The translations under genes and the position numbers were made by a program. DNA of 46,730 nucleotides from a virus: positions 1 through 46,730 of IMG/VR virus record IMGVR_UViG_3300045241_000030. One strand, written 5' to 3'. Position 1 is the first letter of the stretch, and each line of letters starts with the position of its first letter. Below, piece by piece: positions 1,512 to 41,736 of the stretch. The notes under the pieces were generated by a model. That model was not told the DNA's origin and did not search any database. It saw only the letters and a program-made list of their open reading frames with translations.

Positions 1512-4500
1512 TTAGAACTTGTATTTAGTATCAAGACGCATTACGCGCCCGTTTACGCCTCTTTCAAATCGTCTATAACCTTTATCGTCGAAATAATCCT
1601 GTGGTATTTTACCGATGGCATTTGTTAACTGCTCAGTGCTTTGACCGATGGCTTCAGTTACTTTATCCATATTGACCCTGGCGGTTTCTCTTACAATGCT
1701 TATGCCATTACGAAGAATACCGGATTCATTTTGCATGTCCAAATAATCCAGGTGCTTGGCGGTTTCGCTGGCTGTTATTATTCGAGAACCCTTTTTCAAA
1801 TACGTTAATGTTGGTCCATCGGTTCCGATCATTCGGGCCTTTCCTGATTTATCAACTATTATTTCCGGCCCCAATTCATTGACAATTGCCAAGCCTTCAG
1901 GTGAGTTTTCGGTACCAACCGCAAAGGAAGGAATCGGTTTTGAAGCCACTACGCCAATCTGAACGGCTCCGGCAGCGGCAACTAATGCAGCCAATACAAA
2001 TGAGGCCGGCGGCGGGTAATCTCCTAACGCCTGGCTTACACCCTTGGCGGTGTTTATTCCTATTTCAGTGATCGCCAAAGCCTTTTCGAAAATGGCCCTG
2101 CGTCTATTGGCTTGTCGTTGCTCGTCGTCTATCTTCTTTTTTCTTGCCGCAAATTCAGCCTGAATTAAAGCTTTGGCCTGTTCATCATCTTTGACAAGGG
2201 CTAATTGAGCCGATTGTTCTTGACTTAATTTATCAAGACGGTTATTACGGTCAGCGTCAGCGGCTGCATTTTGTTGGTCAATGATTTGTAAGGCACCTTG
2301 AAAAGCTACTTGTTTTAAGTTGGTGACTGCATCCTGAATCTTCTTTTCAACTTCGATGCGTTTATCCGCACTTTGTTGTGAAAGCTGAAGTTCCAACTCA
2401 GAGATTGACTTTTCAACGGCTGCGCGTTCCTTTGAACCTTCATCCAATAAAGCGGCCCTGGTCTTTAAATATTCAATCTGTGAATTGAGGGAAGCGGTTT
2501 GCCCCTCTTCCTGAATCTTTAATTTTTGCTTTTCAAAATCTTCAAGGCTGGAAACGTCACCATTTGCAAACGCTTCATTTAAAGCGGTTAATTTTTCATT
2601 AACGCCCTTATCCAGGTTATCCGCGAAAATGGCCGCGTCCCTGTCCAGAACTTTAAAAACGTTGTCTTCAGCTGCTTTTTTACCATCTTCAAGAAGCTGA
2701 TCTGATTTGGCCTGATAGTCTTCTTGTATTTTGATTGTGTTCTTTGTGTAGGCTACGTCAGTGCCTAACAATTTTTCCTTTTCGCTCCGAACTAATGCAA
2801 TCCGGTCCTTGATGGAAATATCTTCCCGGCTATATATTTTATCAAGCGTATCCCCGTCTAAATCAATCCTTGCAAGGGCAGCTTCTTTTTCTGCTTCTAA
2901 AGCCTTATCGCGATTGTCCTGAAGAAGCTTTTCTTGCGCATGGTCCATATCAGTGATCGCCTGTAAGCGATCTCCTAAACTGGATTCCTCATTTGCTAAT
3001 ATTTTTTGATTTGTACGAACAGTCTCATTTAACCGGAATGAATTTAATGCGGTTTCTGCGTCTTCTTCACGCTTCTTTTGCGCAATAATGTCGTTTGTCA
3101 TTTCATTAATCAGGGCTATTTCGGCTTGTTGCCGGCGCTTACGTTCCTGATAGAATTTACTTTGAAGGGCTACTTCAGCCGCTTGCAATTCAACCAATTT
3201 TTGACGCGATTCGTACGTCTCGCCATCCTGTTTAATGTTCAGTTTTTGCAGGGCTATTTCATCCCGAGCTAATTTAAGATCGCCTTCAAGTTGGTCTTGG
3301 AGTTTTTGATTTGCCTCACGTAGTTTGTTGAAACGTTCTTCATCACTGAATCTCAGCTTATCTTTTGATTCAAGAAGAAGTTTACCCACTTGCAATTCCG
3401 TACGCGCATCATCAATTATGTCTGCGATCCGGTCCTTACGTAGTTGATTCTCTAAAGCTGAAATTTGATTGCCAAGTGCTACCCTGGCCTTAAATGCGGC
3501 CATTGTTTCATCGGCCATCTTCTTTATTCCATCGACTACGACCTGAATCGCGTCAGAGGTTTTATCCAAAAGTTTTGTTACGCCGGTCGCTTCCTGGGCT
3601 AATGCATTGCCCAGGTCTTTGAATCCATCTGTAAAGCCGCTTTTAAATATTTTCCCAATGGCCTGAAATAATAATGGTATGGCTTTTAGACGATTGAATA
3701 CATTTTCTAAAATAGCATCGCCAAGCTTTTTAAGCGTGTCGATAGGGTGTTCGAATGCTTGGGTAAATGCTTCGGTCAATGGTTTTAATAGGTCTATTAA
3801 AGCCTGAAGCGTTTCTTTTGGATGGGTTAAGGCTTCGAATATTGCTTTACCCAAATCCTTAATTACGGCCATGAATGTTTCAAGGATGGCTTCACCAACC
3901 TTTAACACTTTATTAAAATCGTCCTGGCCTTCAATTGAGCCTTTGAAATAGGCCATTAAAGCGCCAAGGGCTGCGGCAATTGCGATGATTATCGCGCCAA
4001 CTGGATTGGTAGCCAATGCATAAAAAGCCTTTCCTAAGCCTTTAACTTCTTCGATTACCTGGCCGAATTCAGGCGCTATTCTGCCGAGATTACCCTGCAT
4101 TCCTTCGAGGGCTTTTCCATAATCGCGTACGCTTCGCTGATTGTCACCTACTGCTTTATCCCATTTTTTAAGCTTTTCGGTATTATCTGAAACGAATTTT
4201 TGAAGCTGTTTGAATTCATCACTCGTGCCATCAATGCCGCCTTCCATTGCTTTCAAATCCTTCTTGGCTTCAGCAACTTGTTTGCTTAATTCATCATAAG
4301 AGCCAGCCGCAACCAAGACACCTTTACGGGCTTCTTTTAATGCGGAATTTGAGGCGTTATATTCATAGGCCAGAGCTCTAACCTTTTCTATTTGTGTATC
4401 CTTAATTGCGTTGTCAGACGCATCGCCCATTGTTTTATATGCGGCTTCAGCTTCAGCAAGTCTTTTGCGTAGATCGTTAAGGCTTCCGGTTTCGTCATTT

Positions 4501-29353: not shown

Positions 29354-29581
29354 TTATTCTCTAAAGTCGTGAAAAGCTTTATCCCGCCTGGTAAAAAGTT
29401 TGCCTTCGACTGAATATTTTTTCGTCGCTTCCCGATATTCTTTAAGCTGCCTCGGTGAATATGAATCCGGTTGACAATCGCATTTATCAAACTCACCATC
29501 ATCCCTAAGGAGATAAAATATGGCCCCTGGAAACAATTCATTTGCTTTAATCGGCCTAAGTTTTTTAATGTCTATTACCAT
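29354..29581 (-). CDS. Unknown small protein downstream of primase-helicase
   Basis: The 75-residue product starts with ATG 29581, overlapping the primase-helicase stop as TGATG. It contains a PGAIFYLLRDDGEFDKCDC segment with a beta-barrel feel and a charged C-terminus. Function unknown; translational coupling suggests a replication accessory. Confidence 0.6.
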   Translation of the reverse strand: MVIDIKKLRPIKANELFPGAIFYLLRDDGEFDKCDCQPDSYSPRQLKEYREATKKYSVEGKLFTRRDKAFHDFRE

Positions 29582-31602
29582 CAAAATATCGTATCGTGTT
29601 CGGTTGGTTCGAAATCAATTGTTGGCTCTGCGGCTGCTTTTTGTTTCCCTTTTTTGGGCTCTGCTTTTGCCTTTTCAGCATTTGCGGCCTTTGCGTTTTC
29701 TATTTTCTTGTAAAGCGGTTCATTGTATGTGCCATCAATGGGGCAATGCCCATCAAAGTAATAACGGTTTGTTTGAAAAAGGAATTCTATCTTATCATAT
29801 TTCCCAACCCGTCCGACAAGCTGTTGTTTACGTTGCTTCAGGTTCAAGAAGGCGACCCGTGGGTCAATCGGGTTTAAATGCTTGAATAGCCTAGCAATTG
29901 AATAAATGCCATCCATGCTATTATTCCAAGCGGCCCCGCCTGATAGCATGTATTGGGTACAAATCTTGAATGTACCGTCCTGGTTCTTTGGATCGACCTG
30001 GGCCTTTGGATGGGCTATCCAATTCATTGAGGTATCGGTTTCTAATGCGAATTCCTTAGTGTCGCTGAATACACGATCCAAATATAAATCGAATCGGCCT
30101 TCGCTTTCGTTGTGGTCTAAGTTCTTAAAAGGATCAACTAAAGCGCCATCGAATTTATACACATCATAGAAGTATCTGAAATTGTCCAGTAGGTCAGTAT
30201 ATTTTCTTTGCTTCGGATTGATGATTATGAAATGCTTTTTAACCCATTGGACTGCTTCCCTATATTCGAATTCCGGCATTTGAGGAATGTTGTACATTTT
30301 CTGATAATGCAGATATGGGCATTTTCCAGTGAGCATGAATACCAATTCATCCACAATGTCTGATCCCGAGGTTTTTATTTTCCCGTTCGAATCTTTGTAT
30401 GTATTCAGCATTTCAGGGGGCCAAATACACCAAACCCAATCATCGACAAGCGACTTCATTAAGGCCATGAACATGAAGTAGGTCGATTTGCCATCATTCG
30501 GCCAGCCGGTCCAGCAATTTTGAAAGGCTCGTTTCCAGCTAAAGTTTTCTTTTATGGCTTCAATTCTGGATTCTTCGCCAACTGCTTTACCGTTCCTGAA
30601 TTCTTTTATGAGCTCCTCTTCATCAATTACGACAATGCTTTGATGCCTCTTATCGTGAAGTTCGTTTGAATTACGGCCTTTAGTCCAGGTTGGTTTTATT
30701 TCGGGTTTCAGGCCATCCAATACCGCATCGCCTATGTCATAGCCATCGGTCCGGGTTGGGAATAAATCAACTACATGAACTTTGTCAATATGCTTTATCA
30801 GATTGCGGACACTTGACGGCCAAATCCATTCTTTAGTTTCTGGCTTGCCTTTTTCCTTTTCGATATATTGGCCGCGTCCGGCTTTGTCCGCATCGGCGAT
30901 CCAGTAAACTTCCCTGCCCTTTAGAGGTGATATTTTATCGGCTGTGTTATCCGAACCATCACTTAGACCGCTTGCGGAACCACATGAAACCCAATCGAAT
31001 TGCGGATATGTGATCTTGCATATTGCGGCTGTTTTCTCGCTTTCGACAATGCAGACTATTTTCTTTTTTTCTGGGTCAAGGGTATGTTCAAGATATAAGC
31101 AAAGCCCGTAATAATCCTTTACGTATTGATTCGTTTGTTCCGGCTGCTTCAGGCTGAATGATGCGAAATCATGGTCACGGTGCCCATCTTTTTTGTATTT
31201 GAACCATTTGAAATTGACGACATTTTTGTTTTTATCGCAAAACACGAATACAGTAAGTCCATTCTCTTCAAGCATTCCCAGGGTGTATAATGCATTCGTA
31301 TCAAAGCCTTTTGATGTCAGATAATTGTGAAAATTGGAGGGCTGGCGTTTAAGCGATTTGATTTTATTTTCATCCGGGAAGATTTGATGAAGGACCGAAT
31401 CAGAAGCGCCTTTCTTCTTTTCGATCTGTGGAGCATTATGATAACCGCATTCGCTTTCCCTATCACATCGGCCAAAAGCGTATTCGTTGATCGGCTCTAA
31501 TGTCTCGGCATTGACGTAGATAACGAAGCGCTTCTTATTGCATTGTGGGCAAATATATTTCTTTGATGTCTTGTCGAGGTGAAAGGGGAATTTTTCGCTC
31601 AT
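29581..31602 (-). CDS. Bifunctional DNA primase-helicase
   Basis: The 673-residue protein has an N-terminal zinc ribbon (Cys18, Cys21, Cys46, Cys52), a TOPRIM domain (VESEK 186-190 and DADKAG 237-242), and a C-terminal RecA-like ATPase with Walker A GWPNDGKST (366-374). This order is the T7 gp4/Twinkle plan: it would unwind DNA and make primers at the fork. The linker has little known similarity. I start at ATG 31602, which overlaps the previous stop as ATGA; the frame also extends to a GTG. The C-terminal 40 residues are Ala/Lys-rich and disordered. Confidence 0.85.
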   Translation of the reverse strand: MSEKFPFHLDKTSKKYICPQCNKKRFVIYVNAETLEPINEYAFGRCDRESECGYHNAPQIEKKKGASDSVLHQIFPDENKIKSLKRQPSNFHNYLTSKGFDTNALYTLGMLEENGLTVFVFCDKNKNVVNFKWFKYKKDGHRDHDFASFSLKQPEQTNQYVKDYYGLCLYLEHTLDPEKKKIVCIVESEKTAAICKITYPQFDWVSCGSASGLSDGSDNTADKISPLKGREVYWIADADKAGRGQYIEKEKGKPETKEWIWPSSVRNLIKHIDKVHVVDLFPTRTDGYDIGDAVLDGLKPEIKPTWTKGRNSNELHDKRHQSIVVIDEEELIKEFRNGKAVGEESRIEAIKENFSWKRAFQNCWTGWPNDGKSTYFMFMALMKSLVDDWVWCIWPPEMLNTYKDSNGKIKTSGSDIVDELVFMLTGKCPYLHYQKMYNIPQMPEFEYREAVQWVKKHFIIINPKQRKYTDLLDNFRYFYDVYKFDGALVDPFKNLDHNESEGRFDLYLDRVFSDTKEFALETDTSMNWIAHPKAQVDPKNQDGTFKICTQYMLSGGAAWNNSMDGIYSIARLFKHLNPIDPRVAFLNLKQRKQQLVGRVGKYDKIEFLFQTNRYYFDGHCPIDGTYNEPLYKKIENAKAANAEKAKAEPKKGKQKAAAEPTIDFEPTEHDTIF

Positions 31603-31787
31603 GCTTCGGTTCTGATTTCTATTTGATCCGTCCACGCCAAGTCTCCTGTAATTTCATCGGGAATAAGCCGATTATGAATGATTGCTTTATACCCATCGGT
31701 TAATTCTATAACCAATTCGGTATTATTTTTCCTGAGATAACAATCTTTGATTGTCTTCCCATTTAGTCCAAAGGGTTCGATTACCAT
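31599..31787 (-). CDS. Unknown small protein between initiator and primase-helicase
   Basis: The 62-residue product starts at ATG 31787, just inside the initiator gene's end, and is coupled to the primase-helicase by ATGA. It looks like a small beta protein (NTELVIELTDGYKAII). A longer start at 31856 would overlap the initiator by 76 nt and is less likely. Confidence 0.55.
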   Translation of the reverse strand: MVIEPFGLNGKTIKDCYLRKNNTELVIELTDGYKAIIHNRLIPDEITGDLAWTDQIEIRTEA

Positions 31788-32563
31788 GTGAAATTGGACG
31801 GCATACCGTCGTTTAGTGGTTGTGAATTGTCCGGTTCTATTCCTGATTGCTCCCATCCTTTTTCAGGCTGTGCAATTGATTGCTCCATGTATCCGGTGAA
31901 TTTTGATGGTCTGAAAAGTGTCTCGGGTGTTAAATACCTTTCCCATTCCGTGTTCTTCCAAACTCCGCAACGGTGTTGAAGCATTTTAATTACCTGTTCA
32001 AGCGTGAAGTCATGCGCTTTTAATCGTGCGTTTATTGACTTTGCGCGTTCGAGTGTCCAAATAGATTTTCCACGTACTCCATGATCCTTTTTGAATTGAT
32101 TTAATTTATCAATTATCAATTTTGAGAAATCATGTATATGTTCTTCTTCTTGGTTCTTCTTAAACTGGTTCTTCTTAGGTTCATCACCTGAACAGGTATC
32201 ACTCACCACATGAACACTATCGTTCACCACATGAACAGATTCAATTGAAAGTTTTTCGTTAGAATATTTCTTTATGTTTTCGCTTGAAACATCGACCAGG
32301 TAAATAATAATCCCCTCGCCTCTTTCTATTATTTTGATAAATCCCTTATCCTGAAGATTCTTTCGACATTCAGAAACCTTGCCGACACTCATTTTACAAA
32401 TCTCTGCCGTCTTTCTAACGCCTTCCCAACATTCACCGACACGGTAATAATGCAGCAAAAGACGGTATTCAAAAGGGCTTAAATCTGAATCATCAATGAT
32501 GTTAGGGAATTGCGTGAAGTATTTTTCGAGATACTTCGGATTGTGTACACGGGACTTATTCAT
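31781..32563 (-). CDS. Replication initiator (lambda O-like, Phg_2220_C type)
   Basis: The 260-residue protein has an N-terminal winged helix-turn-helix (about residues 28-90), a linker containing duplicated VHVV motifs, and a C-terminal domain ending in W..YLTPETLFRPSKFTGYM (about 205-230), typical of conserved phage replication proteins. It would bind origin repeats and load the primase-helicase. Three iteron-like repeats lie inside its own gene (32180-32237), as in lambda O. I use ATG 32563, because the earlier ATG at 32596 falls inside a terminator hairpin. Confidence 0.8.
   Translation of the reverse strand: MNKSRVHNPKYLEKYFTQFPNIIDDSDLSPFEYRLLLHYYRVGECWEGVRKTAEICKMSVGKVSECRKNLQDKGFIKIIERGEGIIIYLVDVSSENIKKYSNEKLSIESVHVVNDSVHVVSDTCSGDEPKKNQFKKNQEEEHIHDFSKLIIDKLNQFKKDHGVRGKSIWTLERAKSINARLKAHDFTLEQVIKMLQHRCGVWKNTEWERYLTPETLFRPSKFTGYMEQSIAQPEKGWEQSGIEPDNSQPLNDGMPSNFTW
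32180..32237. repeat. Three iteron-like repeats, candidate origin of replication
   Basis: Three 15-bp units, TTCATCACCTGAACA, CTCACCACATGAACA and TTCACCACATGAACA, begin at 32180, 32202 and 32223, giving spacings of 22 and 21 bp. Each contains a TTCA...TGAA half-palindrome. They lie in the linker-coding part of the replication initiator. Two copies of GGTTCTTCTTA (32152, 32167) lie beside them. Confidence 0.55.
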
Positions 32564-32574
32564 AGCGATTGGAA

Positions 32575-32679
32575 AATAAAAAAGCCCGGTAAACATCGCT
32601 GAAATGGTTACACGGGCTATTTAGGTTTTAGACCTAAAATTCTCTAAAGACTATCGTTTCAGCGCCGATCGTCTTTACG
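32575..32679 (-). ncRNA. Structured leader or small RNA before replication initiator
   Basis: From the expected transcript start near 32678 the coding strand folds into three hairpins. H1 (32676-32646) has an 11-bp stem with one mismatch and a 9-nt loop. H2 (32638-32620) has a perfect 7-bp stem. H3 (32618-32583) has a 6-bp GC-rich outer stem and is followed by six T. The H1 loop CGCTGAAA (32664-32657) is the exact complement of TTTCAGCG in the H3 loop (32604-32597). H3 has the form of a terminator and lies 12-20 nt before the initiator start. The element could be an attenuator, a regulatory leader or a small RNA of about 100 nt. Confidence 0.6.
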
Positions 32680-32684
32680 TTCAA

Positions 32685-32714
32685 CAAATCTATGAAAAAT
32701 TAAGAAGGTGGCAA
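32685..32714 (-). promoter_or_regulatory. Bacteroidota-type promoter before replication initiator
   Basis: TTG (32714-32712) is followed after exactly 19 nt by TAGATTTG (32692-32685), a full consensus match. It overlaps the end of the upstream gene and fires into the structured leader. Confidence 0.75.
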
Positions 32715-33125
32715 AATGATCGCCTTCTTACCGCCATGTTGTTCGACGGCACTTTCAATATTCTTTTCCAAATCGCTCTTGCCGCCATCTTCAGAAGCCC
32801 CGCCATTAATGAATTTAAAGCGCATGCCATACTTCTTTTCAATATGCCTGGCAAAACGCACACCCATAGCAGCAACTAGCGGCTGAAGGGCTGTAATATC
32901 ATGCTGGACCTTATCCCGACGTTCGAGTAACTTCGGATTGAATGGGTTTTGCTTCAAACTTTGAAGACAAGATTGATAAGCAAGGAATAGATCATCCAGA
33001 TTCTTGACAATGAACATGGTTTCAATCATGTTTTCAAGTGTCATGTCACCTGATCCATAGTTCTTTTGAACTTCGGCATATTGTTTTGCTTGCGCTTTCG
33101 CGGCTTCAGCTTGCTTGTTCTCCAT
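32700..33125 (-). CDS. Unknown helical protein
   Basis: This 141-residue protein is rich in Ala, Gln, Lys and Glu and mostly helical, with a small Gly-rich segment (FINGGASEDGGKSD) and a C-terminal IILPPS. It overlaps the HTH gene by 20 nt and contains the replication promoter near its 3' end. No family recognised. Confidence 0.55.
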   Translation of the reverse strand: MENKQAEAAKAQAKQYAEVQKNYGSGDMTLENMIETMFIVKNLDDLFLAYQSCLQSLKQNPFNPKLLERRDKVQHDITALQPLVAAMGVRFARHIEKKYGMRFKFINGGASEDGGKSDLEKNIESAVEQHGGKKAIILPPS

Positions 33126-40265: not shown

Positions 40266-40288
40266 TAAAAAAAGCCCTTAAAAGGGCT
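40266..40288 (-). terminator. Terminator at end of late operon
   Basis: AGCCCTT/AAGGGCT arms with a very short A-rich loop are followed by seven T on the coding strand, 39 nt after the fibre-like gene. It separates late from early transcription. Confidence 0.85.
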
Positions 40289-40326: not shown

Positions 40327-41736
40327 TCAATACATTTTTAACCAATTCGCCCCGTTTGATTGAACCCGAATACCATCGAATTGATTAAGTGTTATACTTG
40401 TTGGCGTTCCTGATACATTCGCAAAGGTCTGGCTTGAAGTTGTGAGCACTGTTACAACGCCGGTTCCTGAATTGGTAATGAAAAACATTCTTCCGGCTCT
40501 GCCCACTGCGGTTGGTAATGTCTGATTGTTGGTACCTGAAGTTACATTTACAGTAAAATCAGAAGTTGTAAGGGTATAGTTAGCCGTTTTAGCAACATAA
40601 TTTAAAGTAGCCCTTAAATCTGTAGTGGTTGCATTCGTGATTGCTGTAGTTACGTATTGTTTGGTTGTAATGCTGGCATTTGTAGGTACTGAAGCAGCGC
40701 CACCGGTTAATTCATATTTCGCACCATCAAATGTAACGGCACCTGGTTGTAAGTCAATGGATGAATTTGTCCCGCCGTTCGCACAATAAAAATTAATTTC
40801 ACTACTAGCCGCACCACTGGAAACTATACTAACTCCACCGCTATTACTATATGAAACCGTGTTGGTCTTTCCACCCGATGTTCCTGTTAATGACACACTA
40901 TTTGCGCCTGATTCAATTGTTGTATTTGTGGTAATTGTTCCCCCCAAATCTACCGCCGTACTATTAGCCGTGGTTCCGCTTCCATTAGTGAGCGCAAAGG
41001 TGACCCCTGATAAAGCACTTGTAATGCTATTCTGGTCCATTGTACCATCTGTATTTGTTCCGGTAGTTGTGTATAATTTTGTTTTACCTGATACAGTAGG
41101 CGAAGCCGTATTCACGGTTCCCGCGGCTGTCACGTTTCCGGTACCATCAAATGAAGGGGAGGTGTAAGCAATATCGCCTGTAATTGATAGCGTTATACCT
41201 GTTTGAAATTTAGGAGCGCTGACTATTGTTATAACCGGTGTTGTTGTTGTATTGGCTATCGTTGCGTTACCGTCCGCACTTGTAACGCTTGTTACGGTAC
41301 CGGCACCAATTTCACTAACCTGTAAATTTGTTCCATCATAATAAAGTGTATAAGATTTACCCGCGATAATATCTCCTGAAGCTAAAGCGGTGCTTACTCC
41401 TTTTACAAGATTGATAGGCCCAATAGTTCCGTTAAATGTTAATGTGGATGCAGCCGTATTTCCATTCGTGAATTTAACGGGTATTGTGAAGCCGGAAGGA
41501 AGTGAAGTAAACCCGGAAAGTGTCGAATAGGTATAGGTATTTGTTCCTGATACCGTTACCATATCGGCATACGATTTTTTATTATTGATAATGTCGTAAT
41601 CCAGCGTTTTTGTTCTCCCAGGGTCAAAAGTGTGTAGTCCGATATAATCGGCTTGTGTTTTCATTGCCCCGTCTGTGACCTGGCCGCTTGCAAATGCGCT
41701 TATTAGCAGAAAAAAGAATAATAGTATGTTTTTCAT
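40327..41736 (-). CDS. Fibre-like protein with Sec signal peptide
   Basis: The 469-residue protein begins with a clear signal peptide (MKNILLFFFLLISAFASG|Q). The mature part is Thr/Ser/Gly/Asn-rich, repetitive and beta-structured, like tail fibres. It has repeated patterns (TVTSVTSADGNATI, LTNGSGTTANSTAVDLGG) and a C-terminal domain (GRAGRMFFITNSGTGVVTVL, FDGIRVQSNGANWLKMY) typical of fibre tips. A signal peptide on a virion fibre is odd, since tails assemble in the cytoplasm. It could be a secreted decoy or surface protein, or the leader may be retained in the virion. Confidence 0.7.
   Translation of the reverse strand: MKNILLFFFLLISAFASGQVTDGAMKTQADYIGLHTFDPGRTKTLDYDIINNKKSYADMVTVSGTNTYTYSTLSGFTSLPSGFTIPVKFTNGNTAASTLTFNGTIGPINLVKGVSTALASGDIIAGKSYTLYYDGTNLQVSEIGAGTVTSVTSADGNATIANTTTTPVITIVSAPKFQTGITLSITGDIAYTSPSFDGTGNVTAAGTVNTASPTVSGKTKLYTTTGTNTDGTMDQNSITSALSGVTFALTNGSGTTANSTAVDLGGTITTNTTIESGANSVSLTGTSGGKTNTVSYSNSGGVSIVSSGAASSEINFYCANGGTNSSIDLQPGAVTFDGAKYELTGGAASVPTNASITTKQYVTTAITNATTTDLRATLNYVAKTANYTLTTSDFTVNVTSGTNNQTLPTAVGRAGRMFFITNSGTGVVTVLTTSSQTFANVSGTPTSITLNQFDGIRVQSNGANWLKMY

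Follow-up and report, generated by a model that had tools for sequence, protein, structure and literature searches.

The locus directly upstream of the replication initiator in a Bacteroidota-type phage raises the question of whether a contact between two complementary loops of an RNA leader controls expression of the gene behind it. To our knowledge, replication control in these Bacteroidota phages is largely unknown. The window, which denotes the whole 46.7-kb viral record that was analysed (46,730 nucleotides), is assigned to a Bacteroidota-type phage by its portal matches: among its best matches, the portal shares 31–37% identity with portals of Croceibacter, Bacteroides and Elizabethkingia phages, and portals of Flavobacterium phages also match. 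The large genes with family matches lie on the minus strand, as does the leader, which consists of a promoter, the hairpins H1 and H2 and the terminator H3, followed by the replication-initiator gene (Table 1). The initiator P0001 as listed starts at an ATG within H3; the ATG given in Table 1 is used here. Elsewhere in the window, P0004 (33523–34443, minus strand) lies inside the recombination/replication block, matches phrog_1706 ('CRISPR/Cas system associated', E 1.5e-4) and possibly encodes a Cas4-like nuclease. A 469-aa protein with no PHROG match is encoded at 40327–41736 (minus strand), upstream of a strong terminator at 40288–40273.

Table 1. Features of the leader and of the replication genes in the window.
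Feature	Position	Strand	Basis or remark
Bacteroidota sigma-A type promoter, TTTG-N19-TAGATTTG	32685..32715	−	Box consensus and position from PMC9723704
−33 element, TTTG	32712..32715	−	
−7 box, TAGATTTG	32685..32692	−	
Predicted transcription start, 5th base past the −7 box	32680	−	Inferred from the −12 to −5 box placement
H1, 5' hairpin, 7+4 bp, 9-nt loop	32645..32677	−	
Seed CGCTGAAA in the H1 loop	32657..32664	−	
H2, 7-bp hairpin	32620..32638	−	
H3, intrinsic-terminator hairpin	32583..32618	−	−15.6 kcal/mol folded alone
TTTCAGCG, apical H3 complement of the seed	32597..32604	−	
Terminator T tract, six T	32578..32583	−	First T also within the H3 stem
Replication initiator P0001, 260 aa from the ATG at 32563	31781..32563	−	Phg_2220_C (PF09524), phrog_428, phrog_270
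Primase/helicase P0003 (Zn ribbon, DUF6371, helicase part)	29581..31635	−	Downstream of the initiator, same direction

The earlier note had described a promoter followed by H1, H2 and a terminator-shaped H3 with six T before the initiator, and this anatomy is confirmed. The RNA from 32684 to 32574 folds at −32.5 kcal/mol compared with −20.5 ± 3.2 kcal/mol for dinucleotide shuffles (n = 200; z −3.8), and none of the 200 shuffles folds equally well. The promoter overlaps the 3' end of gene P0002, the stop of which is at 32700. It is the sole coding-strand match to TTTG-N18-21-TAnnTTTG in the window; by itself it is weak evidence, because about 1.4 such sites are expected by chance on both strands. 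The genome is AT-rich, and promoter-like or terminator-like sites are without significance by themselves. Since the TAnnTTTG box sits at −12 to −5 in Flavobacterium (PMC9723704), transcription is predicted to start at about 32680, which is three nucleotides upstream of H1, instead of at 32678 as first proposed. The seed in the H1 loop and its complement in the H3 loop are perfectly complementary over 8 nt, as had been claimed, but 3 of the 8 H3 bases are already in pairs in the minimum-energy fold. The seed has a single complement in the window leader.

Close relatives of the window phage were sought in IMG/VR with the initiator, the upstream protein, the helicase and the portal, and none was found. 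A blastn comparison of the window with phages revealed no close relative, and a search for Phg_2220_C in 395 Bacteroidota genomes returned one weak match only. In Flavobacterium rivuli (L297 and L317), a below-cut-off Phg_2220_C match coincides with the position of a DUF6291 gene, hinting that the initiator type of the window and the DUF6291 type may share a C-terminal domain. When the loop sequences of the window were used as a search pattern, at least 119 stretches were retrieved, none of which repeated the full arrangement with the same loops; L126, among the loop-pattern matches listed, proved by chance to contain a comparable leader whose loops differ. Because no close relative was found, the comparative test was run on analogous leaders, and the architecture was sought 5' of the replication initiators of other phages.

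A screen of 1163 terminators (2.1 Mb) for those with a loop matching a preceding hairpin loop revealed that the architecture recurs with other sequences. The screen yielded leaders upstream of the initiator of Tenacibaculum phage JQ (AGCATCCTAC/GTAGGATGCT), of a Lin1244_N protein and helicase (L159), and of a DUF6291 protein (L126). Homology searches at the protein level in IMG/VR, bacterial genomes and cultured phages were then used to collect relatives of DUF6291 proteins, several of which have PHROG matches of the primosomal, O-like or replisome-organizer type. The resulting set contains 196 loci, nearly all found by protein homology, and includes the window, JQ, L159 and FL-1. A filter that is blind to complementarity retained 64 of the 196 loci with both a promoter box and a terminator, and these form 29 non-alignable clusters with less than 65% identity. 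In 24 of the 29 clusters, including the window with its 8 nt, the first 40 nt contain a stretch of at least 7 nt that is complementary to the apical region of the terminator in the same leader. Only 1.8% of mismatched leader–terminator pairs contain such a complement and none of 20,000 permutations reaches the observed sum, where the distances were set after some examples were known and the mismatched control used identical definitions. When the leaders found through complementarity (the window, JQ, L126 and FL-1) are removed, the complement is present in 20 of 25 clusters compared with 2.0% of mismatched pairs (0 of 20,000 permutations). In the five remaining clusters, L214 and L381 resemble coding sequence by eye, the terminators of L221 and L258 were drawn too short (complements of 7 and 10 nt exist), and the complement in L362 is 6 nt.

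The leaders precede initiators of different families: DUF6291, phrog_270/1701 (JQ), the O-like phrog_678 (P12002L), Lin1244_N (L159) and Phg_2220_C (window). They are present in the cultured Cellulophaga phages phi19:3 and phi13:2, Olleya phage Harreka_1, Flavobacterium phages 11b, tooticki6-1 and FL-1, Polaribacter phage P12002L and Tenacibaculum phage JQ. Leaders also occur on bacterial contigs of Pedobacter sp. Leaf170 (L299), a Vicingaceae genome (L304) and two MAGs (L294 and L310), of which L299 and L294 were judged by eye alone and L304 and L310 are also within the cluster count. We define the class by a TAnnTTTG-type promoter 85–170 nt upstream of the first gene, an intrinsic terminator less than 60 nt upstream of that gene, a complement of at least 7 nt between the first 40 nt and the terminator apical region, and a replication gene downstream. 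The window has its −7 box, H3 and the 8-nt complement at these positions, followed by P0001, and its element is best filed as a class member by architecture, which does not imply homology to the other leaders. Some members of the class have a weak H1 or none, so that the class is not a strict kissing-hairpin family. An H2-like hairpin is absent from most other leaders; the three-hairpin model proposed at the outset is too specific, and H2 appears to be private to the window phage.

Several further sites were recorded beside the class. Flavobacterium phage FCOV-F2 carries a leader of the same anatomy (L131, 6982–7085; GTAGTGC/GCACTAC) before an HNH endonuclease gene and not an initiator. Matches in L142 and L144 were left uncounted, as the replication genes there are encoded on the other strand; these two related intergenic sequences, at about 3000–3130 and minus relative to the helicase, lie upstream of a recombination gene, and their paired hairpin loops vary together (ATATAAT, ATATTTA). 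In Elizabethkingia phage TCUEAP3 (L003, about 31850–31970, minus strand), a 10-nt complement (CTCTCACCCC/GGGGTGAGAG) with nested inverted repeats occupies the gap preceding a Mom-like DNA modification gene and may represent a different form of RNA control.

Compensating changes in the two loops of related phages had been named in the earlier note as a check on the contact, and they are observed in the analogous leaders of other Bacteroidota phages. Close families carry the pairs GGTAGGA/TCCTACC, GGTCGGA/TCCGACC and GGTGGGA/TCCCACC. In family A4 (12 distinct sequences), the loop–loop helix is 97.6% paired, one column pair varies among A-U (8), C-G (2) and G-C (2), and two further pairs with double changes lie in the H3 stem; the alignment is small and its covariation reflects few independent events. 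Sliding the partner by 1–3 columns lowers the paired cells in A4 from 99% to 38–53%. In L230, L374, L220 and L304, which were compared element by element (the MAFFT alignment slipped by one column in some rows), the H3 arms are 79–93% identical whereas the seeds are just 38–88% identical, and every seed matches its own partner at 7–8 of 8 nt. Below the apical loop, the letters on the two sides of H3 in part of the class fall into two groups, AGUA/GAA or UGA/GAU, in a census of letters that involved no structure test; the groups comprise L260, L270, L321, L357, L361, L362 and JQ, L212, L230, L304, L323, L130. These letters perhaps form structured inner loops, which could bind a protein or set the geometry of the hairpin, and the AGUA/GAA letters resemble the G-bulged loop E motif.

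The reading with the best fit to the data, which we hold with moderate confidence, is that the 5' leader of the replication operon acts as a transcription attenuator and sets the dosage of the initiator. It is supported by the fixed order of promoter, 5' seed, terminator and initiator, with the seed at +1 to +17 of the transcript; the leader before the HNH endonuclease gene of FCOV-F2 argues against it. In computed folds of nascent RNA just past the emergence of the H3 loop, the full seed helix is optimal in 21 of 24 leaders, an outcome that partly follows from any 7–12-nt match. The full-length optimum is without the seed helix in 23 of the 24 leaders, and the median cost of the helix is 5.7 kcal/mol. 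In the window, L373 and L405, the nested seed helix is not formed in the nascent fold; the window contact would have to be of the kissing (pseudoknot) type, because H1 is too stable for the nested form.

As an attenuator, the window leader would operate in the following order. RNA polymerase would initiate near 32680 and transcribe H1 first and the terminator last. Once the 5' arm and the loop of H3 emerge, the H1 loop would pair with the H3 loop ahead of the H3 3' arm, and this seed helix would delay H3 formation in the manner of a timing switch. The polymerase would either escape into the initiator gene or stop at the T tract to release a small RNA of about 100 nt, and this outcome would set the initiator dosage. 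We infer that contact between the loops makes termination less frequent, and that the released small RNA may exert feedback in trans as a competitor for these loops. For a functional H1–H3 contact with an attenuator role, as first proposed, the compensating changes in other phages and the fit of this reading speak in favor, and the weak or absent H1 in part of the class speaks against. The observation of the earlier note is confirmed overall, and its interpretation is partly supported.

The terminated leader might also serve as a trans-acting immunity or copy-number RNA like P4 CI, pairing with nascent leaders of the same phage and forcing their termination. The replication genes of co-infecting or resident copies would be shut off, with the seed as the specificity tag. 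The short RNA would hold both partners, the seeds of L230, L374, L220 and L304 diverge more than their H3 arms while each matches its own partner, and P4 silences its own replication genes through RNA-directed termination (PMC4825925). However, the compensatory changes are equally expected from cis pairing alone, and P4 CI, a processed RNA, is flanked by its two targets, seqA and seqC (PMC4825925), compared with one target here. We consider this reading unlikely. Action in trans would be possible, since both partners sit on the terminated RNA and the seeds change faster than the scaffold, and the present data fit cis and trans action alike. A wider form of the idea, for which we see about one chance in several, holds that RNA-only self-recognition is widespread in Bacteroidota phages, the hypervariable seed of a short leader RNA recognising in trans those terminator loops that are of its own type. 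If this were true, replication would be metered by copy number, related superinfecting phages would be excluded or tolerated by seed type, and the seeds would act as incompatibility groups.

The direction of the cis effect could also be the reverse of that in the attenuator reading, with a kissing contact that helps H3 form and makes the terminator more stable rather than slowing its formation, in which case the paired leader would be the off state. H1 and H3 can both stand with the loop–loop contact in place, and an apical loop formed in advance would be in keeping with the possible structured inner loops that some H3 hairpins carry. We judge this improbable, as the seed is the first part to be transcribed and, in the same 21 of 24 nascent folds, its pairing is optimal while the H3 3' arm is still to come.

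It is very unlikely that the 8-nt match in the window is a coincidence between an ordinary promoter and an ordinary terminator that are unrelated to the leaders of other phages. In favor of coincidence, no close relative of the window phage was found, its H2 and very stable H1 are atypical, its H3 is without the inner-loop motifs found in part of the class, and a loose single-locus test of the longest complement between the first 45 nt and anything downstream gives p ~0.06. A more specific rule combines the TAnnTTTG box, a terminator, and a complement of at least 7 nt (at least 3 G/C) that links the terminator apical region to the first ~40 nt. Against coincidence, this rule gives one match in about 1.57 Mb of shuffled sequence (three dinucleotide shuffles of the 0.52-Mb set) and one in 1.07 Mb of shuffled IMG/VR loci. 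Its single match in the window sits at the class position, immediately 5' of the initiator. The combination of box, terminator and complement in the window exceeds chance, under a rule that was formulated only once the window had already been seen. With the same rule, no convincing leader was found in P2559Y, P2559S, TCUEAP2, RAP44 and four Bacteroides/Alistipes phages (a match in L408 aside), so that the class is not universal.

That the loops co-vary as DNA operator copies for a repressor or the initiator is hardly credible: they do precede the initiator gene, and two sites of one protein would change together, but the copies are inverted with no direct repeat between seed and terminator apical positions in any of the 29 clusters, their positions are +1 to +17 of the transcript and the apical region of the terminator, and a hairpin frequently surrounds the seed.

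The structured leader class recurs upstream of replication genes of several families in phages with hosts that include Cellulophaga, Flavobacterium, Polaribacter, Olleya and Tenacibaculum. The paired loops make the attenuator hypothesis open to direct test, changing seeds could account for compatibility among related phages, and the element could be used as a compact RNA switch in Bacteroidota genetics. The Rfam 15 covariance models gave no match in the window at the gathering threshold and no leader match in 20 related loci, where the best sub-threshold leader match has E ~0.3. The only Rfam match is a DUF805b RNA (RF02914) at 723–755 of the IMG/VR contig L234, several hundred bases upstream of the leader. 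No published description of such leaders was found in the open-access literature, preprints excluded, which is weak evidence of novelty; the leaders apparently form a recurrent, widespread, unnamed and undescribed class in Bacteroidota phages.

Among known systems, the plasmids pT181/pIP501, ColE1 (RNA I/II) and R1 (CopA/CopT) set initiator or primer expression by loop complementarity, and loop changes alter specificity. Their control uses a counter-transcript from the opposite strand; in contrast, both partners of the window leader lie within one transcript. A consensus search of the plus strand near the leader found no TTTG/TTG-N18-21-TAnnTTTG promoter for a counter-transcript, which leaves weaker promoters possible. 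In the HK022 put RNA, hairpins at the 5' end of a phage transcript likewise influence termination, and put acts on RNA polymerase at distant terminators; it is not known to be matched to a terminator loop, unlike the leader seed. The Bacteroid-trp attenuator (RF01692; PMC2864571) and other Bacteroidota attenuators share with our leaders the phylum and an attenuator-like organization, whereas our leaders have no Rfam match and their pairing needs no leader peptide. The C4 antisense RNA of phages P1/P7 (RF01695; listed in PMC2864571) is also a phage RNA, and by pairing with a leader it controls the gene downstream, but our leaders do not match RF01695, and C4 is associated with different genes and with Proteobacteria. 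In P4, as proposed here, an untranslated phage leader with a terminator precedes the replication genes, and RNA–RNA pairing decides premature termination (PMC4825925). Unlike P4 CI, the window leader has one seed and one target, which is the terminator's own loop.
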